DNA of 64,000 nucleotides, from positions 1-64,000 of the forward strand of contig JAJRYD010000044.1 in assembly GCA_024275955.1 (NCBI GenBank), in the 5' to 3' direction. The position numbers and the translations under genes were made by a program. The number at the start of each line of letters is the position of its first letter. The stretch's first letter is position 1. The notes under the pieces were generated by a model. The model saw nothing but the letters and a program-made list of their open reading frames with translations, was not told the origin of the DNA and searched no databases. This DNA comes from Nitrospirota bacterium (GTDB taxonomy: Bacteria > Nitrospinota_A > UBA7883 > JACRGQ01). Below, in pieces: positions 7,900-51,408 of this stretch.

Positions 7900-7902
7900 T
7901 GC

Positions 7903-8397: not shown

Positions 8398-9659
8398 TAT
8401 GCAACCTCCTCAGGTGAAGAAATTTTTCCCGTTATCGCTGTTGCCGCCGCCACCGCCGGACTCGCGAGGTATATTTCGCTTTTGCGCGAACCCATACGTC
8501 CTACAAAATTGCGGTTGGTGGTGGTTAACGCTTTTTCGCCGTCAGCAAGTATTCCCATATAGCCGCCAAGACAAGGGCCACATGTCGGAGTGGAAACAAC
8601 CGCTCCAGCATCCATGAAGATATCTATAAGACCATTGCTCATCGCCTCTCTCTGTATTGCGGGAGTTGCAGGGATTACTATCAGCCTTATGTTGCTAGCC
8701 ATTTTTTTACCTTTTATCAGGTTCGCTACGGTTTCAAGGTCGGAGTAGCGCCCGTTTGTGCAGGAACCTACTACAACCTGATCTACCATTATGTCGCCGA
8801 CTTCCGATATCCCCTTGACATTCGATGGAAGGTGCGGGAACGCAACCTGAGGCTCAAGTTCTCCTACGTTTACCTCTATCCTCTCGCAATATTTGGCATC
8901 CACGTCGGACTCGTAATATTTCGCTTCTCGCTTGAATCGGCCTTCAACATACTCCCTTGTTTTGCCGTCGGGGTGGAAGATGCCGTTTTTAGCGCCTGCT
9001 TCAACAGCCATATTTGCTATCGTAAAGCGGTCATCCATCGAGAGATGCTCTATCGCGTCACCTTTGTACTCCATGCTCTTGTATAGTGCTCCATCTACGC
9101 CTATCTTGCCGATTATGTTAAGGATTATATCCTTGCCGCTTATCCACTTACCCGGTTTACCTTTTAGCTCGAAGAGAATTGTCTCCGGCACCTTGTACCA
9201 AGCTTCGCCGGTTATCATCGCCGCCGCAAGGTCGTTACTACCGACGCCAGCGGCAAAAGCTCCGAGAGCGCCATATGTGCAGGTATGGCTGTCTGCGCCG
9301 ATCACGAGGTCTCCCGGACCCACAAGACCCTGCTCGGGCAAAATGGCATGCTCTACGCCCATTCTGCCATCCGCCCAAAAATTGATAATTCCCTGATCTT
9401 TGGCAAAATCACGCACCACCTTTATCTGGTTGGCCGAAGCGATATCCTTGGCAGGTGCAAAATGGTCCATCACCAACACCACGCGCTCTTTGTCAAATAC
9501 CTTTTTGGCACCTACCCTATTGAATTCTTTGACAGAAATAGGAGCAGTTATGTCGTTTGCAAGGGCTATATCAACTTTGCAATTAACAAGCTCGCCAGGC
9601 TTCACCTGTTCGGCACCAGCGTGGGATGCCAGAATTTTTTCTGTTATAGTCATTTCCAT
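8397..9659 (-). CDS. leuC: 3-isopropylmalate dehydratase large subunit (short type)
   Basis: The [4Fe-4S] aconitase-family catalytic subunit of isopropylmalate isomerase. Visible motifs are [23 protein letters not shown] and PTCGPCLGG, which supply the cluster cysteines. At 420 aa it belongs to the shorter class also seen in archaea and homoaconitase relatives (the E. coli form is about 466 aa). I chose the ATG at 9659, preceded by GGAG at about 9 nt, over an in-frame GTG at 9686. It is the first gene of leuC-leuD-leuB-asd and diverges from the ydcF-like gene. leuA is not in the window. Confidence 0.96.
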
Positions 9660-32485: not shown

Positions 32486-34036
32486 ATGACTGACACAGCT
32501 CATCAAGAAAAGATTCTTATCCTTGATTTTGGTTCGCAATATACCCAGCTTATTGCGAGAAGAATCAGAGAAATCGGCATTTACTGCGAAATTTTCCCAT
32601 GCACCGATAAAATCGGCAAGATAAAAGAGTTTAACCCAAAAGGTATAATACTCTCCGGCTCTCCTTTTAGCGTTCACAAAAAAAGCTCTCCCAAAATACC
32701 GGCAGGCATTATAAAGCTAGGGGTTCCTCTGCTTGGTATCTGCTACGGCATGCAGTTGATTACCGATTTCTTTGGCGGAAAGGTACAAGAATCTAAAAAA
32801 CGCGAGTACGGCCACGCTGTTCTGACCACAGATGATAGAGACGATATTCTGGCCGGCTTTAAGAAAAGCGAGCAGGTTTGGATGTCGCATGGAGATAAAA
32901 TTATAAAACTCCCAAAAGGGTTTAAGAAAATTGCCCATACGGAAAACTCTCCAGCGGCGGCAATGAAAAACGAATCTGCCCGTATATACGGGCTACAGTT
33001 CCACCCGGAAGTTATTCATACCCCAAATGGCACGAAGCTTTTAAGAAATTTCTCCAAAAAAATATGCGGTTGCAAAGGCAACTGGAATATGGGGTCGTTT
33101 CTTAAATACGAAGTAGAGAAAATCCGGCAGAGGGTAGGAAAAGATAAAGTTATACTCGGCATATCCGGCGGTGTCGATTCAACGGTAGCGGCCGCCATAA
33201 TTCATAAAGCGATAGACAAACAGCTTACATGTCTTTTTATAGACAACGGTTTACTCAGAAAAGACGAGGCCAAAAAAGTTCTAAAAAGTTTTCGGGATAA
33301 TCTTCATATCAAGGTGAAGTTCAAGGATGCTTCGATGGAATTTCTCAAAGCACTCCACGGAGTTACTAACCCTGAAAAGAAACGAAAAATAATCGGCCGA
33401 AAGTTCATAAAAATCTTCCGTGAAGAGGCAGAAAAAATAGGCAAAGTAAAATTCTTGGGGCAAGGCACCCTTTACCCCGACGTGATAGAGTCGGTCTCTT
33501 TTAAGGGGCCATCGGCGGTAATAAAAAGCCATCATAATGTCGGTGGACTGCCTAAAGTTATGAAACTAAAATTGTTAGAGCCGTTGCGGGAGCTTTTCAA
33601 GGACGAGGTGCGGGTTTTGGGGCGTGAGATGGGCCTAAGCAGACAGTTAATACAAAGAATGCCTTTTCCGGGGCCGGGACTAGCTATAAGGATAATCGGC
33701 TCGATTACCGGCGAAAGGCTGAAACCTTTGCGCTAATCCGATGAAATTGTAGTAGAAGAGATTAAAAAAGCCGGTCTTTACACCGAAATATGGCAAGCTT
33801 TCGCGGTGCTTTTGCCGATTAAGACTGTCGGGGTTATGGGCGACCAGAGGACGTATGAGAATGTGCTTGCGATAAGAGCTGTGAACAGCAGGGACGGTAT
33901 GACAGCCGACTGGGTACGTCTTCCGCAAGAGCTTTTGGCAAAAATCTCAAACCGGATAATTAATGAGGTACAAGGGGTCAATCGTGTGGTATATGATATA
34001 TCGTCGAAACCGCCTGGAACAATTGAATGGGAATAA
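32486..34036 (+). pseudogene. guaA: GMP synthase guaA interrupted by one in-frame TAA
   Basis: GMP synthase aminates XMP to GMP using glutamine. The N-terminal class I amidotransferase has Cys86 in GICYGMQ and His/Glu in QFHPE. The PP-loop SGGVDSTVAAA is near residues 227-237. After GERLKPLR, codon 417 (33734-33736) is TAA. The same frame then continues without further stops through [52 protein letters not shown] and KPPGTIEWE to TAA at 34034-34036, an otherwise complete 516-codon gene. Relatives have an E or R codon here (LREADAI-like), so a single GAA-to-TAA change would explain it. A sequencing error, a real nonsense mutation or readthrough are all possible. Truncation would remove the C-terminal dimerisation domain. 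Confidence 0.93.
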
Positions 34037-34048
34037 ACTGGAGGTAGC

Positions 34049-34318
34049 ATGGTAGATGCGAAATGGGGAAAGCGATATACCTGTTTTAAGTGCGATACAC
34101 GGTTCTACGATTTAAACAAACCAGACGCAGTCTGTCCTAAATGTGAGGCGAACCAAAGCAAGGCTCCCCAAAAAGGGGTGCTTTCGGCCGCGGCCAAAGC
34201 GAGACGAAAACTTATGCCGGTAGAAGAATCTTCGGAAGAAGACGATACGAAAGCCGAGACTGATAGACTCGATATCGACCCTCTGGAAGATACCAGTCCA
34301 CTGAAAGTTGAAATATAG
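34049..34318 (+). CDS. FYDLN-type zinc-ribbon protein (TIGR02300-like)
   Basis: An 89-aa small protein. The N-terminus has a four-cysteine ribbon (CFKC and CPKC) around the conserved block TRFYDLNKPDAVCPKC, the signature of the FYDLN acid family. The C-terminal half is rich in Glu and Asp (EESSEEDDTKAE). Function in the family is unknown; nucleic-acid or RNA polymerase contact has been speculated for such ribbons. GGAGG precedes the ATG. It lies between guaA (12 bp) and dnaE (2 bp), so it is probably co-transcribed. Confidence 0.82.
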   Translation: MVDAKWGKRYTCFKCDTRFYDLNKPDAVCPKCEANQSKAPQKGVLSAAAKARRKLMPVEESSEEDDTKAETDRLDIDPLEDTSPLKVEI

Positions 34319-34320
34319 AG

Positions 34321-37300
34321 ATGCAAGGTGAAGATTTTGTCCATCTTCACCTTCACTCTGAATACTCTCTGCTCGATGGAGCGATAAAACTTAGCGACCT
34401 ACTGCAAAAAACCGAAGCTCTCAATATGTCCGCTGTTGCGGTAACAGATCACGGCAACCTTTTCGGTGCGTTAGAGTTCTATCAAAAAGGTTTTAGGAGC
34501 AGTGTGAAACCGATTATCGGGTGCGAAGTATATGTCGCCCCCACAAGCCGGCACGACAAGACAGCAACCCACTCGCCGGACGAAGACAAATCCCATCATT
34601 TGGTATTGCTAGTAAAGAACATAAAAGGCTATGAGAACCTTTGCAAACTTGTTACCGCTGGATACACGGAAGGTTTTTACTACAAGCCTAGGATAGACAA
34701 AGAACTTCTTGCGGAGCATCACGAAGGGCTTATCGCTCTTTCGGCATGCCTTCAAGGAGAGGTGGCAAGAAGACTTCTCTCCGGCAAAGAAGATGAAGCC
34801 GAAAAAGCAGTATCGTTTTATAAAGAGCTTTTCGGAGATAATTACTACCTCGAAATACAGGATCACGGCATACCGGAACAGAAAAAGATAAATCCACTTA
34901 TAGTCAATCTCGCAAAAAAGTTCGGCATAAAAGTCGTCGCTACCAATGACGCGCATTACCTGCTTAAAAAACATTCAGACGCGCACGATGCCCTCCTTTG
35001 CATAGGTACCGGAAAAATACTCTCCGATACAAACAGAATGAAATATTCCACAGACGAATTTTATCTAAAATCGGCCGAAGAGATGAGACAACTTTTTTCG
35101 TGGATACCAGAAGCGGTAACAAATACGAAGGAAGTTGCTGATAAATGCAACCTTGATATGAACCTTGGCGATTATCATCTCCCTGAATATAAAGTGCCAG
35201 CCGATACCACTCCTATCCTATACCTTGAAGAACTTGTGGAACGCAACCTTGCGGCGCGCCTTGAGGAAGAGAAAAAGCGAGGCGACACCATGCCGGATGA
35301 AAAGATTAAGGAATACAAAGAAAGGCTTAGAACGGAACTTGGCGTAATCAAGAATATGAAATTTGCAGGCTACTTTCTCATTGTATGGGATTTCATAAAT
35401 TACGCGGTCAAACACGATATCCCTGTCGGGCCGGGACGTGGGTCTGCCGCTGGAAGCCTTGTCGCTTACTGCTTGGGGATTACCGATGTAGACCCGATTA
35501 AATACGGCCTGCTTTTCGAGCGTTTCCTAAACCCCGAAAGAATATCAATGCCGGATATCGACATTGACTTTTGTATGAACAAACGCGACGAAGTAATAAA
35601 GTACGTCAACGAAAAATATGGAAATGACAATGTAGCCCAGATAATAACATTTGGAACAATGAAAGCTAGAGGTGTCATCCGCGACGTAGGCCGCGTGATG
35701 GACATACCTTACGCTGAAGTAGATAAAATTGCAAAGCTGATACCTGAAACGCTAGACATAACTATTGACAAAGCGATAAACACGGAAAAAAAACTCGCCG
35801 AACTCCAAAAGAAAGATTCCCGAATAAAAGAACTGCTTGAAACAGCAAAAATTCTGGAGGGTATCGCGAGGCACGCGTCTACGCATGCCGCCGGAGTTGT
35901 TATAGCCCCTTCGGAGCTGACCAACTATCTGCCCCTATATAAAACCAATAAGGGAGATATAGTCACCCAGTTTTCCATGACTAACTGCGAAGACTTAGGG
36001 ATGCTCAAAATGGATTTCCTGGGGCTCCGGACTCTTACCGTTATCGACTGGACGGAAAAAAAGATACGAGCGGAAAAGGATCCAGATTTTTCAATTAAAA
36101 ATATACCGATGGATGATGCGGTCACGTTTGCCCTGCTTTCAGAGGCAAAATCGCTAGGTGTTTTTCAGCTGGAATCATCCGGCATGCGCGACATACTGCG
36201 AAAGCTAAAACCTGAAACTTTTACCGATATCATAGCGCTTGTAGCGCTCTACAGACCAGGCCCAATAGGAAGCGGCATGATAGATTCATTCATAAAAAGA
36301 AAACATGGCACCGAAAAAATTGAAAACATACTCCCCCAGATGAGCGAAGTACTAGAAGAAACATACGGGGTTATCGTTTATCAGGAACAGGTAATGAAGC
36401 TTGCCAACGTGCTTGGAAACTTTACCATGGGACAAGCGGATAACTTAAGAAAAGCTATGGGCAAAAAGAAAATGGACGTTATGGAAGCCCAGCGGGAGCT
36501 TTTTATGAGTGGGGCGAAGAAAAACAAAATTAGCGAAAAGAAAGCCAAAGAGGTTTTCGAACTGATGTTCCAGTTCGCGGAATACGGGTTCAACAAATCC
36601 CACTCCGCCGCCTACGCGCTTATCGCATACCAGACTGCCTACTTAAAGGCACACCACCCTCGAGAATTCATAGCCTCCATCCTTACATCCGAGATGGACA
36701 ACACCGACAAAGTTGTTGTTTACCTTAATGAATGCAGAGAATTGGAAATTGAGGTTAAACCGCCAGACATTCAAGTAAGCAATGTAAATTTTACTGTAGA
36801 CGGTGATTCGATAATCTTCGGCCTTGCCGCTGTAAAAAATGTAGGAGTGAATGCCGTAAAGGAGATAGTCGGCACGCGCGAACAGGGGGGAGAATTTAAG
36901 TCAGTCGCAGATTTCATAAGAAGAATCGACACAAAGTCGGTAAACCGGCGCGCACTGGAATCGCTTATAAAGTGCGGGGCTTTCGACTCTGTCTATAAAA
37001 ACAGAGCCGCTCTTTTTGAATCTATCGACCAGCTTATGTCCGAAGCTTCCAGAACACGGGACGAGGTGGCGGTAGGGCAAGGCAACATGTTCGATAACCT
37101 TGAATCGGCGGAACAAAAAGAGAAAAGGCTTATCAAGAATGTTCCAGACTGGCCGGAACATGACAAGCTCCTTTTTGAAAAAGCGACTGTCGGTTTCTAT
37201 ATAACCGGCCATCCTCTCGAGCCTTATAAAAAAGAGCTAAACCGTTTCGCGACTCATAGCGCATCGGAGGTTTCGGATGCCGAAAACCAGAAAGAAATAA

Positions 37301-37845
37301 GGCTTTGCGGCATGGTCGGCAGTTTAAGGAAACAGATGACAAAAAAACAAAAATTAATGGGCTTCATAACGTTTGAAGATCTTACAGGCTCGGTAAACGT
37401 AATAGTATGGCCGGAGACTTTTGAAAAATCATTAAGCCTTCTGGAAAGTCACGGCCCTATACTAATACATGGCAAAGTAGACGCTGATGAAAATGAGGTA
37501 AAAGTTATCGCCTCAGATATCATTTCGCTTAAAAAAGCAAAATCAGAATCGACTGATAAAATACATCTGGACCTTAACATGGTCGGCATGGAAGAAACCA
37601 CTCTAGCCGAAATTAAAAAGATAGCTAAAGCGCAAAAAGGAAAAAGTCTCCTTGTACTGTGCTTTTCACATCCCGATAAAGGAAAGGTGAAAGTTCATGC
37701 CTCCGAAAATTTCCGTGTAGAAAATAATGACGAATTTGAAAAGAAGATTGAAGGACTGTTAGGGGCTAGGTCTATTCGTTATGAATGCACGGTTAAGACC
37801 CCTGAAAAACCACGCCGCCGCTACCCACGCGCCGCCAACGACTAA
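34321..37845 (+). CDS. dnaE: DNA polymerase III alpha subunit
   Basis: The replicative polymerase catalytic subunit. The 1174-aa protein starts with a PHP domain (HLHLHSEYSLLDGAIKL), has the polymerase core with GPGRGSAAGSLVAYCLGITD and the catalytic acidic motif MPDIDIDFCMNKR (about residue 413), VYQEQVMKLAN and YGFNKSHSAAYALIAYQTAY. C-terminal helix-hairpin-helix and OB-fold (IRLCGMVGSLRKQMTKKQK) regions follow. It is full-length, with no proofreading domain, as expected for DnaE. It starts 2 bp after the FYDLN gene. Confidence 0.98.
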   Translation: MQGEDFVHLHLHSEYSLLDGAIKLSDLLQKTEALNMSAVAVTDHGNLFGALEFYQKGFRSSVKPIIGCEVYVAPTSRHDKTATHSPDEDKSHHLVLLVKNIKGYENLCKLVTAGYTEGFYYKPRIDKELLAEHHEGLIALSACLQGEVARRLLSGKEDEAEKAVSFYKELFGDNYYLEIQDHGIPEQKKINPLIVNLAKKFGIKVVATNDAHYLLKKHSDAHDALLCIGTGKILSDTNRMKYSTDEFYLKSAEEMRQLFSWIPEAVTNTKEVADKCNLDMNLGDYHLPEYKVPADTTPILYLEELVERNLAARLEEEKKRGDTMPDEKIKEYKERLRTELGVIKNMKFAGYFLIVWDFINYAVKHDIPVGPGRGSAAGSLVAYCLGITDVDPIKYGLLFERFLNPERISMPDIDIDFCMNKRDEVIKYVNEKYGNDNVAQIITFGTMKARGVIRDVGRVMDIPYAEVDKIAKLIPETLDITIDKAINTEKKLAELQKKDSRIKELLETAKILEGIARHASTHAAGVVIAPSELTNYLPLYKTNKGDIVTQFSMTNCEDLGMLKMDFLGLRTLTVIDWTEKKIRAEKDPDFSIKNIPMDDAVTFALLSEAKSLGVFQLESSGMRDILRKLKPETFTDIIALVALYRPGPIGSGMIDSFIKRKHGTEKIENILPQMSEVLEETYGVIVYQEQVMKLANVLGNFTMGQADNLRKAMGKKKMDVMEAQRELFMSGAKKNKISEKKAKEVFELMFQFAEYGFNKSHSAAYALIAYQTAYLKAHHPREFIASILTSEMDNTDKVVVYLNECRELEIEVKPPDIQVSNVNFTVDGDSIIFGLAAVKNVGVNAVKEIVGTREQGGEFKSVADFIRRIDTKSVNRRALESLIKCGAFDSVYKNRAALFESIDQLMSEASRTRDEVAVGQGNMFDNLESAEQKEKRLIKNVPDWPEHDKLLFEKATVGFYITGHPLEPYKKELNRFATHSASEVSDAENQKEIRLCGMVGSLRKQMTKKQKLMGFITFEDLTGSVNVIVWPETFEKSLSLLESHGPILIHGKVDADENEVKVIASDIISLKKAKSESTDKIHLDLNMVGMEETTLAEIKKIAKAQKGKSLLVLCFSHPDKGKVKVHASENFRVENNDEFEKKIEGLLGARSIRYECTVKTPEKPRRRYPRAAND

Positions 37846-37915
37846 CGATGGCAAACGCGACTTGCAAACGACTACCGAGCCATTAGGTGCCGGCTAACAG
37901 ACAGCCTATAGTGGG

Positions 37916-38401
37916 CTACTTAGGCTCAAAGGTAAACTCTACGTTGAACGCTTCATCCTTATCTGTCTTGAAGGGTATCACAACCGTCGCGGCATCATCC
38001 GAGACCATCGCGCTTATTTTATGATTCTCTCCAGAGACAACGGTAGGAATTCCCGCTTCGTAATTCATTCCATTCTCCGAAAGTCTTTTTCTGGAGTCGC
38101 CGGTAATCATGTTTGTCATCTCACCGACAGCATCCATAACATCGTCATCTATATCTGATTTTTCTTCATAAAGCATCCTAGAGACAATCGTGCAGGCGGC
38201 TTCTTTGGAAAACGATAGAACAACCAAACCGTTATTCTCTCCAGTTAGCGATATTGCGCCGGTAACATCGCCAAACAGGGATGAATTAGACTTTAATGAC
38301 GGTTTTCCGATGACAGGGTTAGTTTGACACATAGTGCCGAGAACATTCTTGGTACCCTCGATAAAAGCGTTAACGACTGCGGCATTTATAGGTTTTGACA
38401 T
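37916..38401 (-). CDS. cheX: CheX-type CheY-P phosphatase
   Basis: A 161-aa CheX/CheC-like protein that dephosphorylates CheY-P to reset flagellar signalling. The catalytic helix reads DAVGEMTNMITG, with Glu94 and Asn97 three residues apart, as in CheX. A single such motif and short length favour CheX over the two-motif CheC. A strong GGAGGGGA precedes the ATG. It is monocistronic, convergent with dnaE and about 14 kb from cheA. Confidence 0.87.
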   Translation of the reverse strand: MSKPINAAVVNAFIEGTKNVLGTMCQTNPVIGKPSLKSNSSLFGDVTGAISLTGENNGLVVLSFSKEAACTIVSRMLYEEKSDIDDDVMDAVGEMTNMITGDSRKRLSENGMNYEAGIPTVVSGENHKISAMVSDDAATVVIPFKTDKDEAFNVEFTFEPK

Positions 38402-38859
38402 TCCCCTCCCCCAATTCCATCAATAGTTATGGCATGATGATACCATTTAAAACTAAGGTTGTTAACCCCACCTTTTCCTTATTTGAATGACTGGTACAAA
38501 AAATAATGCAAACTACTTACTAAAAACACTAAAAAACTCCTCCAGCCTTATATCTAAAATGCTTCCATGCCCCCTATCCTACGGAATAAAACCGCACTAC
38601 GAGGAGACAAATAATTATATATTGTAACTAAATAGCAAGAATACTATCCTTGAAATTTGATTTTTATACCGAAAAAGGCCTGACTCGCCCCATAGGAGCC
38701 TGCCCCCGGGGCTGATACTTTTCAACTTTGCTTCCATTTTTACAAGCTAGCCATTCAAAAATGGAGAAAGAAGTTATATCCAAAAAGCGTTAACCAATCG
38801 ACGCAGATTGCCGGAGCCTACCGGCTAACCTGCCTCGTAGATGCTGTTTTTCACTCGCT
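38402..38859. other. gene-free interval between putA and cheX
   Basis: About 460 bp without a convincing gene. It is AT-rich apart from two short GC-rich islands: one around 38681-38715, containing CCTGCCCCCGGGGCTGA, and one around 38806-38825 with CCGG-AGCCTA-CCGG, a short hairpin. The proximal part must hold the cheX promoter. I see no riboswitch, tRNA or repeat array. Confidence 0.4.
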
Positions 38860-41838
38860 TTATATATCCTCTACCTCCGGGGCATAACCGCTACGCATTG
38901 AATTTTCGGAAATGGTACGCGAATCGGCAAAATGAAGCAAATATCCAGGCCCTCCAGCCTTGATGCCGGTGCCGCTCATCCCAAAACCTCCAAACGGCTG
39001 TCTGTATACAAAAGCTCCGGTTATATTCCTGTTAAAATACAGGTTCCCCACCCGAAATTTACGCTTTGCCATCTCAAGATGTTTTGGACTACGGGAAAAA
39101 ATACCGCCGGTAAGAGCAAACTCCGTCGACACAGCGGCATCCAGAGCCTCCTCAAAAGTTTCGACCTGCATAAGTGCTACTATCGGCCCAAAAAACTCTT
39201 TTTGCATCAACGGATGCTCAGCATCGCTAACTTCAAACAGCGCTGGAGGTGCGAAGTAGCCGTTATCAAAATCTTTTTGTAGCTCTTTTACGAAAAGCAG
39301 GTTTGCCCCTTTTCCGGGATTGTTTATAACTTCCATCAATCTTTTATATGCCGCTTCACTTACAACCGGCCCAAGACGGCATTCCGGCTTACTGGCTGAA
39401 GATATTATTATGCTTTTACATGCTTCTACTAAGCGGTTTGCAAAATTCCTGTATGTCTGCTCTCCTACTATTATAACTCTGGAGCAAGCGGAACACTTTT
39501 GGCCGGCATATCCAAACGCACTTTTTATAACCCCTAGAACCGCCTCGTCGATATCGGCATCATCGTCGACTATAATCGCGTTCTTGCCGCCCATCTCGCA
39601 GATAACCCGTTTAACTTGGGGCTGACCTTCTAAAACCTTTGCCGCTTTTTCTATAATGGAAAGGCCAACCTCCTTACTGCCGGTAAATGCTACCTGCACC
39701 ACAGAAGGATGCTTTACAAGATAATCACCAACAGATTCACCGGCACCGGGAATGAACTGAACGACGCTGGACGGAAACCCCGCCCTGATAAAAAGCTGAT
39801 AAACTCTATAAGCAACCGCTGGCGATCTTCCCGAAGGCTTTAGTATTACAGGATTACCGGCAACCAGCGCGGCTGTTGCCATACCGCAAAGAATTGCGGC
39901 GGGAAAATTCCACGGTGTTATTATAACCGTAGGCCCCCTCCCCTCGTAGAAAAGGCTGTTATCTTCTCCGGGAGTATTGCCCATTTTTCGCGGTAGAAGC
40001 TCCACTCGCGCGCGCGCCGCGTAGTAGCGGCAGAAGTCTATCGCCTCGGCAACATCAGCATCGGCTTCTCTTATAGGTTTTCCAACTTCTAAGGTTTCAA
40101 GCGCGGCGATATCTGCCCTGTTTTCTTCCAGAAGGCCGGCAAGCTTTTCAAGCATCGCGCTTCGTTCCTCCACTCTCTTTTCCAGCCATTTTGGATAGGC
40201 GCGCATCGCCGTGACGACGGCGCTCTCCGCTTCAGATTCACTTGGAATGACAGCTCTGGAAACAAGCTGATGGCTTTCACTTGGGCAGAAAATTTCGGTG
40301 GTATCGCCGTCAAAACGTTCTCTACCGTCAACTACTACCGGCACGTTAACAGGAAGCAACCTGCCGGTATCACTAATGGCGGATAGATATTTATTCCTAT
40401 TTTTTTTATTTGTAAAATCGGCAAAGGGAGCGTTTCTAAAACCGTTTTTGGTTTCAATACCTTTCTTCTCTTCCAAAAAGTGAGGCTTGGCAAGAAGCTT
40501 GGCTTCGTCGGCTCCTTCGTGATAGCTCATCCTTAAAAAACCGGAATTGGACATATTTTCAAGCAACCGTCTAACAAGATAACCGATACCGGGTAAAAGC
40601 TCTCCTATAGGCGCGTACAGTCTTAGCCTGCTTGCCAGCTCTTTAAACGCCATCCTCTCCGGCTCCGCCATTCCATAGAGCATCTGTATTTCATACGCGT
40701 TCTTTGAAACCCCTATATCATCGGCAGTCGCGATGGCATTTAGCAATGAACGGTGGTTATGGCTTCCAAATGCCGGACGAAGGTAATCTACATTGTCTAA
40801 AAGTTTTCGAGTAAGCAGTTCGTAATTGGCATCGGTATTCTCCTTTCTCGTATAAACCGGACACGGCAAGCCGTTGCTCAGCGCGTTTACAACCTCAAAA
40901 TCCCAGTAAGCTCCTTTCACAAGCCGAACTGTTATAGCTGTTCCCCTCAACTTTGCGAGCAACAGTAGCCTTTCAAAATCTTTTTCCGATTCTTTAAGGT
41001 AAGCCTGAATAACTATTCCAAGATGCGGACAGCTTTTAAGCTCTGGCGTGAAAAGAATTTCTTCAAACAGGTTATAGGTTATTTCATGGTACTCCCATTG
41101 TTCCATGTCGAAGTTCACGAAAACATTTTTCTCTTTTGCCAAGATAAGGATGGGAAGCACCATCTCTTTAAGGCGGGAAACGGCGCCAGCAGGGTCGAGA
41201 CTATTAAGCTGTGGGTCCATCGCCGAAATCTTGATAGAAACATTCGCAACCGGAATCGGCCCCGCACAATCGCTAGACAGCGATTCATCGGTGGGCCATT
41301 GCTTAACCTCATCGGATACCACACTAATTAGGTCTATGTATCGCTTCTGGTACGTTTTGGATTCGCTGTTACTGAGCGTAGCCTCGCCAAGTATATCAGC
41401 CGTAAAGCCTATCCCCCCGTCATAGAGTTTTCGCATTTTTGGCAATGCTTTCTCTGCGCTACTGCCGATGATAAACCGCTGAGCAAGAGTTTTAGCCCCT
41501 TTTTTAATCACTAAGCTACTCACTCCTGATGTCAACCAATTTGACGCCGCTTTAGTTGCTATCGAAATCACACCCGGAAGCTCTCTGCCGTCTTTTAGAA
41601 GATACTCGTTTAAATGTTCTGTTATCTGCCTAGAAGTTTCAAGAGACGGCAAAACATCTACAAAGCGGAGTAGGTCAACCTTGAAAGCTGAATCTTTCAT
41701 CGCCCAGCCGAGAACCTGCCCCTCCCAGAAAGATTTATCAAAAATGGTAGGTATACCGCCTTTGATTAGTCTATCCAATTTTTCTTTTAGTTTCAGAATG
41801 TCCGATTCGAGTTTCTTATTATTATCTATCAAAGGCAT
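38860..41838 (-). CDS. putA: bifunctional proline dehydrogenase / L-glutamate gamma-semialdehyde dehydrogenase
   Basis: Oxidises proline to glutamate in two steps. The 992-aa protein has the FAD-dependent proline dehydrogenase barrel in its first half (ISIKISAMDPQLNSLDPAGA, IVIQAYLKESEKDFERLL, VRLVKGAYWDFE, FGSHNHRSL, EIQMLYGMAEPER, RRLLENMSNSGFLR). The aldehyde dehydrogenase half (from about 510) has TPWNFPAAILCGM, FTGSKEVG, CEMGGKNAIIVDDDADIDEA and the nucleophile Cys in YAGQKCSACSR. It lacks a ribbon-helix-helix repressor domain, so it is catalytic only. It lies 36 bp downstream of agrE in what looks like a dedicated arginine-to-glutamate operon. Confidence 0.96.
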   Translation of the reverse strand: MPLIDNNKKLESDILKLKEKLDRLIKGGIPTIFDKSFWEGQVLGWAMKDSAFKVDLLRFVDVLPSLETSRQITEHLNEYLLKDGRELPGVISIATKAASNWLTSGVSSLVIKKGAKTLAQRFIIGSSAEKALPKMRKLYDGGIGFTADILGEATLSNSESKTYQKRYIDLISVVSDEVKQWPTDESLSSDCAGPIPVANVSIKISAMDPQLNSLDPAGAVSRLKEMVLPILILAKEKNVFVNFDMEQWEYHEITYNLFEEILFTPELKSCPHLGIVIQAYLKESEKDFERLLLLAKLRGTAITVRLVKGAYWDFEVVNALSNGLPCPVYTRKENTDANYELLTRKLLDNVDYLRPAFGSHNHRSLLNAIATADDIGVSKNAYEIQMLYGMAEPERMAFKELASRLRLYAPIGELLPGIGYLVRRLLENMSNSGFLRMSYHEGADEAKLLAKPHFLEEKKGIETKNGFRNAPFADFTNKKNRNKYLSAISDTGRLLPVNVPVVVDGRERFDGDTTEIFCPSESHQLVSRAVIPSESEAESAVVTAMRAYPKWLEKRVEERSAMLEKLAGLLEENRADIAALETLEVGKPIREADADVAEAIDFCRYYAARARVELLPRKMGNTPGEDNSLFYEGRGPTVIITPWNFPAAILCGMATAALVAGNPVILKPSGRSPAVAYRVYQLFIRAGFPSSVVQFIPGAGESVGDYLVKHPSVVQVAFTGSKEVGLSIIEKAAKVLEGQPQVKRVICEMGGKNAIIVDDDADIDEAVLGVIKSAFGYAGQKCSACSRVIIVGEQTYRNFANRLVEACKSIIISSASKPECRLGPVVSEAAYKRLMEVINNPGKGANLLFVKELQKDFDNGYFAPPALFEVSDAEHPLMQKEFFGPIVALMQVETFEEALDAAVSTEFALTGGIFSRSPKHLEMAKRKFRVGNLYFNRNITGAFVYRQPFGGFGMSGTGIKAGGPGYLLHFADSRTISENSMRSGYAPEVEDI

Positions 41839-41874
41839 AATATTATCTCCGCCTCTTTTTAAAAACTACTTCTC

Positions 41875-43944
41875 TCATATCCCTTGTAGCCTTCTTACCA
41901 ATAGCGAAAGGAACAGCCCGACATCTGTAACTACCCCAACCGATTCAAGGCTCCCCCTATCGGCAAGTTTAGTCACTACCGATGGATTAATATCGACGCA
42001 AACCAGCTTTACCCCCGCCGGAGTCATGTTCCCCGTAGCTATAGAGTGGAGCATGCTAGAAAGCATAAGTATCATATCTGCCCCTTCTATCATCGCCGCG
42101 TATTCTTCCTGAGCCTTTATAATATCCATTTTTGTTTCGGGCAATGGTCCATCGTCACGGATACTGCCGGCAAGGCTAAACGGAACGGCATTTCTGATAA
42201 GCTCGTAAAAAAGCCCTGATTTTAACTTACCGCTTTCAACAGTGCCTTTAATGGAACCAGCTTTGCGTATACGGTTGATAACTTCAAGGTGGTTTCGATG
42301 ACCGCCTTCGACAGGATTGCCTGTTTTTAAATCTACTCCAAGACTTGTTCCGAGCATCGCATTTTCTATATCATGGACAGCTATAGCATTGCCGCCGAGA
42401 AGAGCGTTGAGATAACCATTGCGTGCCATCCATGCGAGATGCACCCCGCCGCCTGTATGAATTACAACCGGCCCGGCAACGACAACAAAGTGCCCGCCAT
42501 TCTCTTTTATACGTTTCATCTCCCAAGCTATACTTTCGACAGCAAGCTCTACACGCCGTTCGCTGGAACTGCTCGAAGCCATAAATCCAAACTGATCACG
42601 GTACATATGCTCACTTTTCAGATTAAAACTTCTTATCCCGTCACTGCCCACAACAACCTTCTCGCCTTCTTTAAGGTTCCTTAAGAGTTTACACCTAGCG
42701 GAAATACCAGAAATAACAACTACCCCATCCATTCTTTGCTTCTCTACATCCAGCCATTCGCCTTTAATCCGTACTTGGGTAGGATAGATGGTAGTGCCGT
42801 AAAACCTTTCAGGAGCAACACCTCTTTTAACAACAGTTGCAACGACAGCATCTTTACTTTCTTTTTCTGGAAGCCTCGCTCCATGCTTGATGATTTTCTG
42901 AATGAGATAATCCAGCTTCTCCTGATTGGGTGCTGTAACCTCTATTTCTGCGCGCGAATACTCTGTACGCTTTTGACCGAGGTGCATACCTTTAACAAGA
43001 AACGCCCCTCCCCCCCTGGCAATGTCATCGCAAATTCTGCTCATCAGCTCGGAGTCAATCAGCTGACCTTCTACAAGAACTTTCCTTCCAGCCACGGGCG
43101 AAACAGCACCGCTTACAGAAGGCTTCACCTCATCCAGAAGAAGCGTTAAACATTTCGCGCTTCCACCGCCTTTTATAAATTCCGAAAGCTCTGTTTGGAC
43201 AACCTTGAACCCAATTGAAGTAAGCTCTCCGCAAAGAGTGGCTGTGCATCGGTTCATAATAATCGTATGGCCGATAACTATAGAATTAGCAGAGAAAGAA
43301 ACAGCATTCTCGCTATCTATTAAGATTCTTTTTTCTTCGGGTACGAGACTTTCTATCATTCTGTTGGAATCAATATCAAAGGCATCAGGATAGTAGAGGA
43401 GATACCTGTCGGGCAGTGGTAGAAAACATGTATCGAGATGATAGAAACGTGGATCGACAAGTCTTAGGCTTACGACCTTTATATTAAAAATCATCGCCAA
43501 AAGCGGATGAGATTCAAGCGAGCTTCTTTGTCCGTAAGCGGCCCAAAGCCATCGCCCTTCCCTATCGAGCAGAGCGTCTACGCCCCCTTCAAACGGGAGA
43601 TCGGGCGGAATAAAATGCAGTTTAAAACCTTTATCCTCGAACCATTGTTTAAAATGTTTTTCTTCTGGCTGACGTTCACGGTAGGCAAAATGAGAAATTA
43701 CCACATCGTTGCCGATTAACAGACCGGCATTGGCAGTGAACACCATATCGGGAAGGCCTCTTTGAGGCTCGACCAATTCGACCTTGGATATTGAGCCGAC
43801 TATCCGGCGTAGCGCCTCCCATTGCTCCCTAGCCGACGTCGATGCAGTCCGTCCGACGTTTCCTTTCATCCATGGATTTATTACATAATTGACACCGAAA
43901 TAATCAGGCCGGCACATTAAAAACCTAACATCAGGATTTGCCAT
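41875..43944 (-). CDS. AgrE/ArgZ-like arginine dihydrolase fused to a LOR/SDH (ornithine cyclodeaminase-type) domain
   Basis: A 689-aa fusion. Residues 1-280 are a guanidine-modifying-enzyme fold with Asn72 in FTANAGL, His169 in RFYHLDTC and nucleophile Cys265 in GGGSAKCLTL, matching within one residue the catalytic set known from cyanobacterial ArgZ (Asn71, His168, Cys264). These residues hydrolyse arginine to ornithine, CO2 and ammonia. The C-terminal 400 residues are a LOR/SDH domain (RAEIEVTAPNQEKLDYLIQ ... VVVAGPVVIHTGGGVHLAWM). In Anabaena AgrE this domain converts ornithine to proline. I chose the ATG at 43944 behind GGAGGG over 43986. With putA directly downstream, the pair would convert arginine to glutamate. 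The LOR/SDH activity here is inferred. Confidence 0.85.
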   Translation of the reverse strand: MANPDVRFLMCRPDYFGVNYVINPWMKGNVGRTASTSAREQWEALRRIVGSISKVELVEPQRGLPDMVFTANAGLLIGNDVVISHFAYRERQPEEKHFKQWFEDKGFKLHFIPPDLPFEGGVDALLDREGRWLWAAYGQRSSLESHPLLAMIFNIKVVSLRLVDPRFYHLDTCFLPLPDRYLLYYPDAFDIDSNRMIESLVPEEKRILIDSENAVSFSANSIVIGHTIIMNRCTATLCGELTSIGFKVVQTELSEFIKGGGSAKCLTLLLDEVKPSVSGAVSPVAGRKVLVEGQLIDSELMSRICDDIARGGGAFLVKGMHLGQKRTEYSRAEIEVTAPNQEKLDYLIQKIIKHGARLPEKESKDAVVATVVKRGVAPERFYGTTIYPTQVRIKGEWLDVEKQRMDGVVVISGISARCKLLRNLKEGEKVVVGSDGIRSFNLKSEHMYRDQFGFMASSSSSERRVELAVESIAWEMKRIKENGGHFVVVAGPVVIHTGGGVHLAWMARNGYLNALLGGNAIAVHDIENAMLGTSLGVDLKTGNPVEGGHRNHLEVINRIRKAGSIKGTVESGKLKSGLFYELIRNAVPFSLAGSIRDDGPLPETKMDIIKAQEEYAAMIEGADMILMLSSMLHSIATGNMTPAGVKLVCVDINPSVVTKLADRGSLESVGVVTDVGLFLSLLVRRLQGI

Positions 43945-44108
43945 AAAACCCTCCAGAATAAAAGTAGATGCTACAAGCGATTCCATTCACCATGTTAGCG
44001 GGAACGGTTCGTAATCAATCGCTATCCTGTCTGCCTATATTTTACAGAATTACCTTTTTTGTACCTAGTTAAATAGAGTTTTTATCAAAAAGCTAAAAAC
44101 AGACCAGC

Positions 44109-44131
44109 AACAGCTTATTTATAAAGCTGTT
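44109..44131 (-). terminator. hairpin downstream of the membrane-protein gene (possible terminator)
   Basis: AACAGCTT (44109-44116) and AAGCTGTT (44124-44131) form an 8-bp stem with a 7-nt loop. On the minus strand it lies 20 bp after the stop of the membrane-protein gene. The T run (TTTTT) starts nine bases further on, so it is not a canonical terminator. Confidence 0.4.
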
Positions 44132-44150
44132 ACCTGCTACTAATCTAGGT

Positions 44151-45977
44151 TTAACGGCTACTTGAATTCTGCTTTTTACGAACATATTTTAAGATAAATC
44201 CGGCAAAGAGATAGCCAAAGAGCGCGAGGTAAGCGGCAAGCATCATCGACGCTAAAACATTGGCCACCTTTTGTCTGACAGGAATCTTAAATGGAAAGTT
44301 TTTATAAGAGACAAAAGCTCTAGCCTCCTCCATCTGGTCTGCCCGAAAATGGTCCCCCGGGCTACAGCTGTTTTCTTTCGGGTAAACGTAGCAAGCTGGG
44401 TTTTTAATATTAAGCAGGCCATCTGCTTCGGCCAAAACTGGCCCCGGCTTGAGTGATTTTGGGCGAAAATCCTCAAGGCTGTATCCAAAAATAGGTTCAT
44501 AGCAAAGAAGGTAAGAGTAGCCACTGGCTAGAAAATTGTTTCGCCCCAAGACCCCGGCAGGTTTACCTTGAGCGTTAAAAACTTGGTATATCTCTTTAAC
44601 GCGCGGTTTAAACCGAGCCTTTTTTGACTCTTGGTATCCTTTTATAATCGGATTGGGATCGTAATATTGCTTATAGTAGAACTTTCTTTCCAAAGAAATA
44701 TTAAACACAACTATGATTATTATTCCCAAAGAAATAATTGTCATATTGTGTCTTTTGAGGAATGGTATTTTCTCCAGCATAAGTGCCGAAAGCAGGATAA
44801 CAATTGGAATATAAAGTGAAAACCAACGTATAAGAGTTGAACTGGTTTTAATAATTGGAATGGTTTTTAAAAAAGAGTTCCATGATGGTGAATAGAAGTT
44901 AAGAATTATCGGCAGTGAAAGAAGAGAGAGGAGTGATAGAACTGTTAAACTTTTATTTAAATTAAACTGCCCCAAGCCGCTTCTAATGGAATTAAAACGA
45001 AGAAACCAAAAACAGCCGAGCAGTATGATAAGTAGCGGAATGAACGTGACCCCGAATTCGAATTCATGTCTTCCAACTAAAAAGTTAGAGTTTGCTATTA
45101 TTGCGTTTGCGCTAATCTCGTCTGGTATCCAGAAAACAGTTCTTATTAGCAATCCCAGCAGGTCTACCATGTTAGGAATGCCCGGAAGGTGGTAGAACTC
45201 CCTTGGAAAATTCTTTAAGAAACTGAGCGCTCCTATGATAGAGGGAGAAGCCAGAATGATAGAAAAAAAGGATGCTAAAAAAAATTTAACCGCAAAAGTG
45301 TTAAAGCTGGCTTTCCCCCAGAAAACAAGAATGTAAATAAGCCCGATGCCAAAGACTGATAGCATTATGGGCGGAAGAAACTGCGACATGCCCGAATAAT
45401 AAATGTAGGCAATTATAAAACCTGCCAAAGCAGAATCTTTTAAAATCCCCCAGCCTGTCTTATCCGAACCTAGAATTAATAATGCTATGAATGGAAGTAG
45501 CATAAATCCATGATAATTAATATGCCCCACAATAAAAGCATGAGAGTAGAAGGTGTTAAAGAGGAAAAGAGTTCCTCCAAGAACAGCTGTTCCCCTTGAA
45601 ACATAAAAAACCTTTCTAAGGAGAAGATAAAAACCTGAAAAGCCCAAACCTGCAAAAAGAGTTAAGGTTATTTTGGTAGAGGCTATCGGCCCAAAAAAGA
45701 ATAGCAAAAACTGAGCTAGTGAAAAGTGCTCGGTTTGTGGGGTGAAAAACTTCGGTAGACCTCCGCAAAACGATGGAGTGAACCATGGAATGCTAAAAAA
45801 GCCGTTCACTCTATGCCAATAATAGCCGTCAAAGATATCTGGAAAGCTGTAAGAGAAGTCGTGTCCCATTAAATGAAAACGGTTCGGATAAAACCTATAG
45901 TAAATATAAGCATGAACAACAAGGAGGATAGTACAAACTATAAAAACGTCTCTCTTTGATATTACTTTTTCAGGCAT
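44151..45977 (-). CDS. polytopic membrane protein, possible GT-C/YfhO-like
   Basis: A 608-aa protein with about eleven to thirteen transmembrane helices. A conserved-looking first loop (NRFHLMGHDFSYSFPDIFDG) follows the first helix and contains acidic residues where GT-C glycosyltransferases often keep a catalytic Asp. Helices spread to about residue 440, then a periplasmic-type domain of about 120 residues precedes a final helix and basic tail. I do not recognise a named family. The organisation resembles YfhO-like and other lipid-linked-sugar membrane proteins. It is downstream of agrE on the same strand but separated by over 160 bp. Confidence 0.6.
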   Translation of the reverse strand: MPEKVISKRDVFIVCTILLVVHAYIYYRFYPNRFHLMGHDFSYSFPDIFDGYYWHRVNGFFSIPWFTPSFCGGLPKFFTPQTEHFSLAQFLLFFFGPIASTKITLTLFAGLGFSGFYLLLRKVFYVSRGTAVLGGTLFLFNTFYSHAFIVGHINYHGFMLLPFIALLILGSDKTGWGILKDSALAGFIIAYIYYSGMSQFLPPIMLSVFGIGLIYILVFWGKASFNTFAVKFFLASFFSIILASPSIIGALSFLKNFPREFYHLPGIPNMVDLLGLLIRTVFWIPDEISANAIIANSNFLVGRHEFEFGVTFIPLLIILLGCFWFLRFNSIRSGLGQFNLNKSLTVLSLLSLLSLPIILNFYSPSWNSFLKTIPIIKTSSTLIRWFSLYIPIVILLSALMLEKIPFLKRHNMTIISLGIIIIVVFNISLERKFYYKQYYDPNPIIKGYQESKKARFKPRVKEIYQVFNAQGKPAGVLGRNNFLASGYSYLLCYEPIFGYSLEDFRPKSLKPGPVLAEADGLLNIKNPACYVYPKENSCSPGDHFRADQMEEARAFVSYKNFPFKIPVRQKVANVLASMMLAAYLALFGYLFAGFILKYVRKKQNSSSR

Positions 45978-46252
45978 CTCGTAAAAGGATACACTCTCTA
46001 AAAAGAATCAACAATGAAATCTGCCTCCATGTGCAATCTGCTTCACGTTGAGGTGTCGGTTACTTAAAATGCGGTTTGCGTGTTTCCCCAGCCTTAGAGG
46101 GCAACATAGAGCTAATCTATTGATTTTATTCATAAAATAAAGATGTATCGAACCATTTTTCTGCATCCTTAACTAATTTTATTCCAGTTAGTTTGAAGAA
46201 TCTGGAGTCGCTCACGCCTTAAAATATAGATTTCCAACGGCTGTATTCATAG

Positions 46253-46591
46253 AAGGCTTCAGTTCTACCAATTTTCAAGCAGGCTAAGAAAGATAGAATT
46301 GGCGATGGTTATCTGTTTATTAATCCTAAAACTGGAAAGCATTTTACTTTGTGCGGGCTGAGCAGTGCGTGGAGAAAAGCTTGCGATTTAGCAGGGGTTG
46401 GAAACTACACACTTCAAGAGGCAACAAGAAAAACTGTTACCAATGATGCCCTTGAACGAGGTATCGACATGAGGGATATTGCAACCGCTATGGGGAATAG
46501 CCCAGACGTGATTCTTAAACATTATGGACAGATTTCTGCGAATAGAAACTTACGTGTTTTCGCTGAAGTGATAAGGCTACCCAAGAAATGA
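46253..46591 (+). pseudogene. tyrosine recombinase (integrase) C-terminal remnant
   Basis: The frame opens right after a TAG at 46250-46252 and runs to the stop at 46589-46591. It encodes the last 112 residues of a phage-type integrase: GDGYLFINPKTGKHFTL, SSAWRKACDLAGV, then TLQEATRKTVTND where the H-x-x-R box belongs, and the nucleophile Tyr in DVILKHYGQIS. The N-terminal half and the first catalytic Arg are missing, and the H-x-x-R His is replaced, so it is inactive. It ends 69 bp from the 3' end of tRNA-Ser on the opposite strand, the usual place for an integrase of an element inserted at a tRNA gene. Confidence 0.78.
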
Positions 46592-46660
46592 ACCGTACAC
46601 GGTTCGTACACGGTTGCCCAGAATTTAACTTGTTGGATAACAAAAGCATTTCCGTAAAAA

Positions 46661-46746
<86 letters not shown>

Positions 46747-46890
46747 AAAGCGCATAGCAGAGTCTAACCTAATACTGCTTTAGCTCAAGCAATTTTATTT
46801 AAAAATAAAGGCCGCCGTTTGCATCTGTGCAAAAACCAAAACTGAGCTACACGTGAATTCCTATTAAAAAAAAAGAAACCCCTCTTTGTT

Positions 46891-48159
46891 CTACCCAAGT
46901 TTCGTCAAATTATTCATGTAGTGCCGCAAAGCTTCAGGAAGCTCTACCGTGCCATCTTCATTCTGAAAATTCTCAAGCAACGCGACGACAGTTCGCCCTA
47001 CCGCAAGACCTGAGCCATTGAGTGTATGGACAAGCTCCGGCTTGCTTTTTTTATCGCGCTTAAACCTTATAGCCATCCGGCGTGCCTGAAAATCGACAAA
47101 GTTAGAGCAGGATGAAATTTCTACATAGCGGTTCTGCGAAGGAAGCCATACCTCTATGTCATAAGTTTTTGAAGCGGAGAAGCCTAGATCGCCTGAACAT
47201 AGCTGGACAACCCTGTATGGAAGCTCAAGCTTTTGCAGTATCGATTCGGCATCAGCTGTTAGTGATTCCAGCTCTTGCGCGGAGTCTTCAGGCTTACTTA
47301 GCTTAACCAACTCTACTTTGTTAAATTGATGCTGGCGTATCAAGCCTGTGGCAATCTTGCCGTAAGAGCCTGCCTCGCTTCTAAAGCATGGAGTAAAAGC
47401 ACAGAATTTTTTTGTGAGATATCCTACAGGAACTATTTCGTTACTATATATATTTGTAATCGGCACTTCGGCTGTAGGGATAAGATAATACTCGCCTCCA
47501 TCAACCTTAAATAAATCTTGCTCGAACTTCGGCAACTGCCCTGTACCTGTCATAGATTCAGCATTAACGATAAAAGGAGGCAATATCTCTTCATATCCAT
47601 TTGCGGAATGAATGTTAAGCATAAAGCCTATAAGGGCCCTTTCTAGTTTTGCCCCAGCTCCACGGTAAAGAACAAAGCGGGAACCACTAATTTTTGCGGC
47701 TCTTTTAAAATCAAGGATGCCAAGCGACTCGCCTATATCAAGGTGTGACTTTGGTTCGAAGTTGAACTTGCGAGGCTCGCCCCATTTGCGAACTTCGATA
47801 TTATCTTCTTCGCTTTTGCCTTCAGGTACCGACTCATCGGGAATATTCGGGATTTCAAGAAGCAAAGAACGTAGTCTGCTTTCGGCCTCACGGCTCTCCG
47901 ATTCGTCCTCTTTGATGCTCTCGGAGAGTTTTTTCATTTCTGCTTTAGGCTCGGAAATATTCTTTCCTTCCTTTGCCATAAGCCCGATTTTGGCCGAAGC
48001 CTCGTTCATTTTTCGTCTATTTTCTTCAAGCTCCCGCTGAATGGCAAGGCGCTTATCATCAAGGTCTAAAATTAAATCAAGATTTAAATCGATCTTACGG
48101 ATAGCAAGCTTCGATGCCACCAGCTCTTTATCTGCTTTTAAAAGTTTTATATCAATCAC
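46891..48159 (-). CDS. serS: seryl-tRNA synthetase
   Basis: Charges tRNA-Ser with serine. The 422-aa class II enzyme has an N-terminal coiled-coil arm (residues about 30-105) and a catalytic domain with motif 2 ([12 protein letters not shown] ... [14 protein letters not shown]) and motif 3 ([21 protein letters not shown]). It starts 13 bp downstream of the TPR lipoprotein gene, and tRNA-Ser(UGA) follows 144 bp beyond its end on the same strand, an apt pairing that may be chance. Confidence 0.98.
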
Positions 48160-48172
48160 GAAGTTTTACCTA

Positions 48173-48961
48173 CTATCGGTTTTTTTCTTCTAACCGTTCC
48201 TCTATCGCGTTGATTTTTGCCTGTATTAAAGCTTTGTTTGGAAATTCATCCGCGAGATCTCTGTATATCACAAGCGCGTCACTGTAGTGTTCTTTTTCTT
48301 CCATACAGACCCCCATAGAAAGGAGTATATCGTGTCTCCATTCATTGTCAGGATATTTTTTTAGAAGTTTTCTATATGCCTTGCTGGCTCTTTGGCAATC
48401 GCTAAGGACAAAGTAACAGTTAGCTATCTGGTAGTCTGCCTCTGCGATAAGTTCACTATCGGGGTACCTGTTTTTCAAGGTTTTGTATTCGATGATCGCT
48501 TGCGAATAGTCTCCTTTTCTGTAGTAGGACCTGCCTATGGCAAATTGATAATTGTCACTTTTGCCCGGGTCATCGGCGCTGTCAATGAGCCTCTGGTATT
48601 GTATAACCGCGTTATCGTATTCCTTTAGAGTATTTTCGTATATTGAGGCTATATATTCAGAGGCAACCCTAGCCTCTTTACCGCTGGGATATACCGAAAT
48701 AACTTTCGAGAAATACTTAATCGCCTTTTCCGGCTCAGATAGATTAAGGAAAAAAGTTTCCCCAGAGCGCAAAAGCGCTTTCTCGGCGTATGGTGAATTA
48801 GGGTATCTGTCCGCCACCTGCAAAAAAAGACTTACAGCCTCTCTGTAGTTGCTGTTCAGCAACTGGTTTTCTGCTTCTTTTAGAAGCATGTCGCCATTTG
48901 AGGTGCAGGAAACCAGTAAGCCCAGGCTAAAAGCCAAGAAAATCTGCTTTGGAGTCGACAT
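48173..48961 (-). CDS. BamD/YbgF-like TPR outer-membrane lipoprotein
   Basis: A 262-aa lipoprotein. The signal peptide ends in the lipobox LLVSC (Cys19). The mature part is a run of tetratricopeptide-like repeats (YREAVSLFLQVADRYPNSPY, AIKYFSKVISVYP, YSQAIIEYKTLKNRYPDSEL, ASKAYRKLLKKYPDNEW, YSDALVIYRDLADEFPNKAL). BamD and CpoB/YbgF homologues organise outer-membrane protein assembly or Tol-Pal coordination, and the exact one is undetermined. Its ATG shares one base with the gyrA stop (TAATG), so it is translationally coupled, with serS 13 bp downstream. Confidence 0.8.
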   Translation of the reverse strand: MSTPKQIFLAFSLGLLVSCTSNGDMLLKEAENQLLNSNYREAVSLFLQVADRYPNSPYAEKALLRSGETFFLNLSEPEKAIKYFSKVISVYPSGKEARVASEYIASIYENTLKEYDNAVIQYQRLIDSADDPGKSDNYQFAIGRSYYRKGDYSQAIIEYKTLKNRYPDSELIAEADYQIANCYFVLSDCQRASKAYRKLLKKYPDNEWRHDILLSMGVCMEEKEHYSDALVIYRDLADEFPNKALIQAKINAIEERLEEKNR

Positions 48962-51408
48962 TATTCCGGTTTATCGCCTTCTTCCCTATCTTCCTCAAGA
49001 ATGGCGATTGACATAACCCTACTTTCCCCATCGGTATCGACTATCGTTACTCCTTGCGTGTTTCTTCCAATAGTAGAAACCTCTTTTACTTTGGTCCTTA
49101 CCATCTGACCATCCTCCGTGATAAGGAGCATTTCATCTTCATTATCGACAGCTTTTAACGCGACGACATCGCCGTTTCTTTTGGAGTTAATTATGTTTAT
49201 TACACCCTTTCCGCCTCGGCCGATAAGGCGGTACTCAGAAACAGCGGTTTTCTTGCCAAACCCGTTTTCGGTAACTGTAAGTATAGTTGAATCCGGCTTG
49301 GTAAGCGCCATTCCAATAACGCTATCGCCCTTCTCAAGTTTTATACCACGCACCCCGCCTGTATGCCTGCCCATCGGCCGGCACTGTTTTTCATGGAAAT
49401 GAATCGCCTTGCCTTTGCCGGTGCCGAGAAATATTGCGTTGTCGCCATCGGTGATACCGACTCCAGTCAAAACATCATCATCGGAAAGTTTTATGGCAAA
49501 AATCCCGCGCTTATGAATGTTGGCGTAAGCAGAAAGAGCTGTTTTCTTTACCGTACCGTTGCTTGTAGCAAGAACAAGGTAATGATCGTTGCTAAAATCT
49601 TTCACGGCAAAGACAGAGGTGACTGTTTCGTCAGAAGGTATGGCAAGAAGATTCGCAAGCGATTTTCCTTTAGCTACACGGCTCGCAAGCGGTACCTCCC
49701 ATACTTTCACACGGTACACTTTTCCTGCCGAGGTAAATATCATCAGGTACGAATGAGTGGAAGCGATGAAAACCTTGATAACGATATCCTCGTCTTTCAT
49801 CCCCATCGACCTTACGCCTTTGCCACCTCTTCTTTGGGCTCTATAGGTATCAATAGGAACACGCTTTACATATCCACCCTGTGTAAGGGTAACTACCATA
49901 TCTTCATCGGCGATGAGGTCTTCGGTATCAAGGTCCCCTTCCATCTCTACTATTTCGGTACGGCGGTTATTGCTATATTTTTTCTCTATTTCGGATGTCT
50001 CGTCTTTTATTATTTTGTACTTTTCTTCCTCGTGATCCCGAATATAGACAAGCCTTTCTATATCTTTTTTGATGCTTTCCAGCTCGTCGATGATTTTTTT
50101 GATTTCCAGCCCGGTAAGGCGCTGTAGGCGCATTTCTAAAATAGCTTTGGCCTGCTCCGATGAAAGGCCGAACTTACCGATAAGCGACTGTTGAGCCTCT
50201 GGAGGGTTTTTGCTTTTCCGTATAAGCTTTACCACTTCATCAATATTGTCTACAGCGACTTTCAGGCCTTCAAGGATATGCTCCCTTGTCTTTGCCTTTT
50301 TTAGGTCAAACAAAGTCCTTCGCGTAATAACAACCCGGCGATGCTCTATAAAATGGCTCAACACCTCTTTAAGGTTAAGGAGCTTGGGTTGCCTGTTTAC
50401 CAGCGCTATCATAATAATGCCGAAAGTATTTTCAAGCTGAGTATGCTTATAAAGCTGGTTCAAAATAATATTCGGCACCGCGTCTCTTTTAAGCTCCACG
50501 ACGACTCGAATGCCGGTTCTATCGGACTCGTCTCTCAAATCCGAGATTCCAGTAATCTTTTTATCTCTTACAAGGTCGGCAATCTTTTCCAGGGTGCGGG
50601 CTTTGTTTACCTGATATGGAAACTCTGTGACGATTATATTTTCCTGATCTTTTTTACCAGGCTCGAACTCGCACTTAGCCCGCAGGCGTATATGACCACG
50701 CCCAGTCAGGTATGCCTGATGAATTCCCGTGCGTCCCCGAATTATACCGCCGGTAGGAAAGTCCGGCCCCGGTACTATTTTTATAAGATCTTCTACCGAG
50801 CAGTCTTTATTTTCGATAATGTATCTCACGGCACTACTCAGTTCGTGAAGATTGTGCGGCGGAATATTCGTAGTCATCCCAACCGCGATACCGGAAGAGC
50901 CGTTTAGCAAAAGGTTCGGAAACTTGCACGGCATAACCGTAGGTTCTTTAAGAGTATCGTCGTAGTTCGGCGTGAACTCGACGGTATCTTTATCAAGATC
51001 TACAAGCATTTCGTCGGTAAGCTTGTCGAGCCGTATTTCGGTGTAACGCATAGCGGCGGCAGAGTCGCCGTCTATCGACCCAAAGTTACCTTGACCGTCA
51101 ACCAGCGTGTGGCGCATCGAAAATTTCTGGGCCAAACGAACAATGGTATCGTAGACCGCCTGATCGCCGTGAGGGTGGTATTTACCGATGACATCTCCAA
51201 CGATTCTGGCCGATTTTTTGTACGCCTTATTATGAGTATTGCCCATTTCATTCATCGAAAAAAGCACCCGTCTATGGACAGGTTTCAGTCCATCACGCAC
51301 GTCCGGCAAGGCTCGGCCGACGATTACGCTCATCGCATAGTCCATATACGAAGTACGCATTTCGTCTTCAATATTTACAGGTAGTTGCTTACCTCCTTGC
51401 TCATCCAT
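48961..51408 (-). CDS. gyrA: DNA gyrase subunit A
   Basis: Breakage-reunion subunit of gyrase. The 815-aa protein has the DNA-cleaving Tyr122 in AMRYTEIRL, the tower and coiled-coil dimerisation domains, and a C-terminal beta-pinwheel with the GyrA-box-like QRRGGKG. Numbering matches E. coli through this region. The position equivalent to Ser83 is Gln (HGDQAVYD) and Asp87 is kept. It heads a gyrA / BamD-like / serS run. Confidence 0.97.

Follow-up and report, generated by a model that had tools for sequence, protein, structure and literature searches.

In Anabaena, the bifunctional enzyme AgrE releases three NH4+ and one CO2 while converting arginine via ornithine to proline, and PutA converts the proline to glutamate (PMC8262935). 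Counterparts of both genes are present in the window (the whole 64,000-nucleotide stretch of DNA that was analysed), where a fused arginine dihydrolase/ornithine cyclodeaminase gene (agrE) is followed by putA in a host that is not a cyanobacterium. Based on homology, it is very probable that the two genes form an operon for the catabolism of arginine to glutamate by the mechanism proposed below.

Anatomy of the agrE-putA locus

The features of the locus are collected in Table 1. A mechanical open reading frame finder places the start of agrE at 43986, 14 codons earlier than the ATG at 43944. The later start, from which the protein begins MANPDVRF, is favored because a strong GGAGGG lies four bases ahead of it and because homology to related proteins begins there. 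No terminator-like site was found between agrE and putA, and, with the short gap and the shared strand, a two-gene operon is plausible. The coordinates and 36-bp spacing given in the original prediction are exact, and the apparent operon that it proposed agrees with this predicted arrangement. A membrane-protein-like gene (44151-45977) without a Pfam match lies approximately 200 nt upstream of agrE, and a CheX-like gene (37916-38401) is located approximately 460 nt downstream of putA. An Rfam search of positions 34000-49000 identified no regulatory RNA or riboswitch at the operon, its sole match being a tRNA. Further upstream, a short open reading frame (46349-46591, plus strand) whose translation resembles the C terminus of a tyrosine recombinase adjoins tRNA-Ser(TGA) (46661-46746, minus strand), and these may be the remnant of an integrated element.

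Table 1 Features of the agrE-putA locus, with positions in the window
Feature	Coordinates	Strand	Description
agrE	41875..43944	-	Fused arginine dihydrolase/ornithine cyclodeaminase, 689 aa
Arginine dihydrolase domain of AgrE	43141..43932	-	aa 5-268; N72, H169, C265; NF052232 387.6 bits (cut-off 450)
Ornithine cyclodeaminase (OCD) domain of AgrE	41881..43089	-	aa 286-688; TIGR00300; LOR/SDH N-terminal part and Rossmann fold; PF04455, PF21571, PF21570
agrE-putA gap	41839..41874	-	36 nt; GGCGGAG ribosome-binding-site-like stretch ahead of putA (from sequence)
putA	38860..41838	-	Proline dehydrogenase/L-glutamate gamma-semialdehyde dehydrogenase, 992 aa, without repressor domain; PF18083, PF01619, PF00171
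Shine-Dalgarno GGAGGG of agrE	43949..43954	-	From sequence
Terminator-like hairpin in the gap that separates agrE from the gene at 44151-45977	44106..44134	-	Weak; number of such hairpins not above shuffled background

AgrE narrowly passes the full-length NCBIfam model NF052231 (bifunc_ArgZ; 1028.3 bits, cut-off 1025) and scores well above the cut-off of the TIGR00300 ornithine cyclodeaminase model (521.8 bits, cut-off 410.8). Since its score against NF052232, the model of the stand-alone dihydrolase, is below the cut-off, it is a somewhat divergent member of the family. The similarity to Anabaena Alr4995 far exceeds what chance would give (phmmer E about 1e-259), with the structure 6lrf matching residues 5-687 (E 2.8e-259), and the solved Anabaena and Synechocystis enzymes align over residues 4-688. 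The three catalytic residues of the dihydrolase domain are all present and are invariant in 49 aligned dihydrolase domains (9 from the host phylum, 29 of the cyanobacterial type, and 11 unfused). PDB 6lrh has Ala at the position of C265 and PDB 6juz has Ser at that of N72, as expected if catalytic residues were mutated for crystallography. The OCD domain retains the near-invariant residues of its family in the alignment.

The PutA chain starts directly with PutA_N, followed by Pro_dh and Aldedh (Pfam), and therefore lacks a ribbon-helix-helix repressor, as in PutA of type A. Among solved structures, it is closest to the minimal PutAs 5ur2 (E 2.8e-273) and 4nm9, and the motifs RLVKGAYWD, GYLVRRLLEN, ICEMGGKN, and GQKCSACSR, which mark the proline/flavin site and the Glu and Cys of the aldehyde dehydrogenase, are intact. 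Thus, the AgrE/ArgZ-like fusion with catalytic Asn72, His169, and Cys265 and a LOR/SDH domain, and the PutA without a repressor domain, all of which had been read from the sequence in the original prediction, are borne out by these comparisons.

Genes for the nickel-pincer cofactor

Ornithine cyclodeaminases of the TIGR00300 family are annotated in NCBIfam as dependent on the nickel-pincer nucleotide, which is made by LarB, LarE, and LarC (PMC11770544). The cyclodeaminase half of AgrE would probably need this cofactor as well. The host genome encodes LarC together with an overlapping LarB-like open reading frame (at locus L046; the LarB name was read from sequence) and a LarE that scores over the cut-off. 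LarA is also encoded, and therefore AgrE cannot be identified as the cofactor user from the presence of the lar genes. Among 361 genomes outside the host phylum, LarC is present in 25 of the 26 with an OCD domain versus 156 of the 335 without one (Fisher p = 3.5e-7, in a test that ignores shared ancestry), and the sole OCD genome without LarC is a draft with 85% completeness. Of 11 genomes in which only a stand-alone dihydrolase is present, 3 encode LarC. Within the host phylum, nearly all genomes (21 of 24) encode LarC, whether or not they have AgrE. This co-occurrence supports, and does not prove, nickel-pincer dependence of the cyclodeaminase; as the cyclodeaminase half tracks larC across bacteria, it backs a cofactor claim that can be tested. 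The locus had been described at the outset as a complete route in two proteins, which would hold for the predicted enzymes, both being encoded, but omits the genes for LarB, LarC, and LarE that are probably required.

The control genomes show two other patterns. LarC and TIGR00300 are present without LarA in Methanocaldococcus jannaschii and Haloferax volcanii. In Synechococcus elongatus and Corynebacterium glutamicum, LarC is accompanied by neither LarA nor TIGR00300, which hints that other proteins also use the nickel-pincer cofactor.

Distribution of agrE and its linkage to putA

The host belongs to a non-cyanobacterial phylum represented by 24 genomes in the collection, and AgrE is present in nine of these, across four families of one class. 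The pathway had been attributed to a non-cyanobacterial lineage, which is correct as to the host, and the gene is not peculiar to this genome. A scan of named genomes yielded best-matching loci (the best 80 listed, by which other hosts are not excluded) with 55% to 59% identity, all of them cyanobacterial except one labeled 'uncultured bacterium' (L085), whose position in the trees is basal in the cyanobacterial set. No plasmid record covered 80% of AgrE. A stand-alone cyclodeaminase with 55% identity to that of the window and no adjacent dihydrolase (L176 in genome G183, 7277-8497) falls on the cyanobacterial side of the OCD tree on a long branch, and it is possible that it was split from, or has lost, a fused partner.

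Related genomes had been proposed as the place to look for the same gene pair, and none was found there. In seven of the eight agrE-bearing relatives, putA, or the piece of it that was found, is on a different contig from agrE, and the eighth (G022) has a putA fragment only. Genome G006 has no agrE in the stretch upstream of putA. Likewise, none of the best 80 named loci listed, nearly all cyanobacterial, has putA in the flanks of agrE (42 of the 80 have 6 kb on both sides). A conserved agrE-putA block in the phylum was not found among the relatives in which both genes could be placed, a set in which the genus of the host has no second species. Among the genomes compared, the pairing is confined to that of the host.

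The putA gene of the window groups with those of five members of its family (99/99), four of which lack agrE, indicating that it is the family's own copy and was present before the pairing. PutA proteins of this family (L023-L027) have 37% to 39% identity to those of other families of the class (L028-L032) and 42% to 45% identity to those of unfused clusters in other phyla. The family probably acquired putA separately from the rest of the class.

These unfused clusters, in which putA, OCD, and dihydrolase genes are separate, consecutive, and on the same strand, are present in 4 of the 361 other genomes and belong to two other families (G243 in one; G047, G194, and G332 in the other). In genomes G065, G210, G365, and G314, the OCD and dihydrolase genes are adjacent and putA is not nearby. 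The order of the unfused genes, OCD and then dihydrolase, is opposite to that of the domains in AgrE. Since the same functions have been assembled recurrently, chance is unlikely as the reason for the pair in the window. For the same reason, the window is not alone in having a compact pathway. The gene pair of the predicted compact module is present, but such a module outside cyanobacteria is not unique, and no relative in which both genes could be placed has the pair.

Proposed pathway, origin, and comparison with described systems

In the proposed pathway, the N-terminal domain of AgrE would convert arginine to ornithine, CO2, and two NH3 via Cys265, His169, and Asn72. The C-terminal domain would then deaminate and cyclize ornithine to proline with release of a third NH3, probably using nickel-pincer nucleotide supplied by LarB, LarE, and LarC, which are encoded elsewhere in the genome, and PutA would convert proline to P5C and P5C to glutamate. 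This is the originally predicted sequence of arginine to proline to glutamate with ammonia release, for which homology provides good support. No cyanophycin synthetase over the cut-off was found in the genome; on this basis, a role in cyanophycin mobilization is rejected, and the storage-polymer role of cyanobacteria does not carry over. By default, the pathway would supply nitrogen and carbon from arginine that is external or derived from protein.

Alternatively, AgrE could act mainly as an arginine dihydrolase that returns ornithine to arginine synthesis, with an inactive or minor C-terminal domain and putA as a chance neighbor for general proline breakdown. An ornithine-ammonia cycle of this type has been described for cyanobacteria, where the amount of ornithine that leaves the enzyme is unsettled (PMC8262935), and the absence of linkage between agrE and putA in relatives is consistent with it. 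However, the high TIGR00300 score and the near-invariant residues kept in the OCD domain, together with the recurrence of putA-OCD-dihydrolase clusters in other genomes, make this explanation unlikely. Arginine catabolism through proline to glutamate is preferred.

As to its origin, the pair, or agrE alone, might have been imported recently from cyanobacteria. Outside the phylum, the fused form was found in only 3 of the 361 sampled genomes, all of which nest inside cyanobacteria in the trees, as such an import would suggest. Nonetheless, the AgrE sequences of several families of the phylum form one clade (99/89) outside the cyanobacterial clade in the OCD-domain tree, and the same arrangement is seen in the dihydrolase tree (SH-aLRT 88), in which the unfused sequences carry long-branch warnings. 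The window AgrE is also closer to its class relatives (64% to 65% identity) than to cyanobacteria (about 57%), none of the best 80 named loci listed has putA close to agrE, putA is its family's own, and the G+C of the pair matches that of its surroundings. A recent transfer is thus disfavored to the point of being extremely improbable. We tentatively suggest, as one possible history, that the fused AgrE is old and common to cyanobacteria and the host phylum rather than a recent leak, and that its pairing with putA arose independently in the host genome, as a fused-gene version of the putA-OCD-dihydrolase cluster that was built elsewhere from separate genes.

Enzymes of both kinds were known before; what is modestly new is the occurrence of a cyanobacterial-type fusion across a small unrelated phylum, here adjoining the enzyme of the next step. 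Arginine breakdown by the AgrE route, as described for cyanobacteria, is thereby extended to an uncharacterized bacterial phylum, and the genomic context backs the AgrE-to-PutA sequence outside cyanobacteria. AgrE of Anabaena (Alr4995; PDB 6lrf, 6lrg, and 6lrh) and ArgZ of Synechocystis (Sll1336; PDB 6juy) share with the window AgrE the domain order, a full-length alignment, and the catalytic Asn, His, and Cys. In contrast to these, the window AgrE belongs to a non-cyanobacterial host and a separate clade and adjoins putA, an arrangement unseen in the best 80 named loci listed. The C-terminal half is by score a member of the TIGR00300 ornithine cyclodeaminases (Methanocaldococcus jannaschii MJ1480 type) but is fused to a dihydrolase, whereas the cyclodeaminase stands alone in many other genomes. 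Like the minimal PutAs without a repressor (PDB 5ur2 and 4nm9), the window PutA is a single polypeptide of about 1000 aa that combines PutA_N, Pro_dh, and Aldedh, and differs in that its gene lies directly downstream of agrE. The unfused clusters of G243, G047, G194, and G332 likewise encode the whole route from arginine to glutamate in neighboring genes of one strand; they do so with three genes, putA first and a separate OCD gene before a separate dihydrolase gene.
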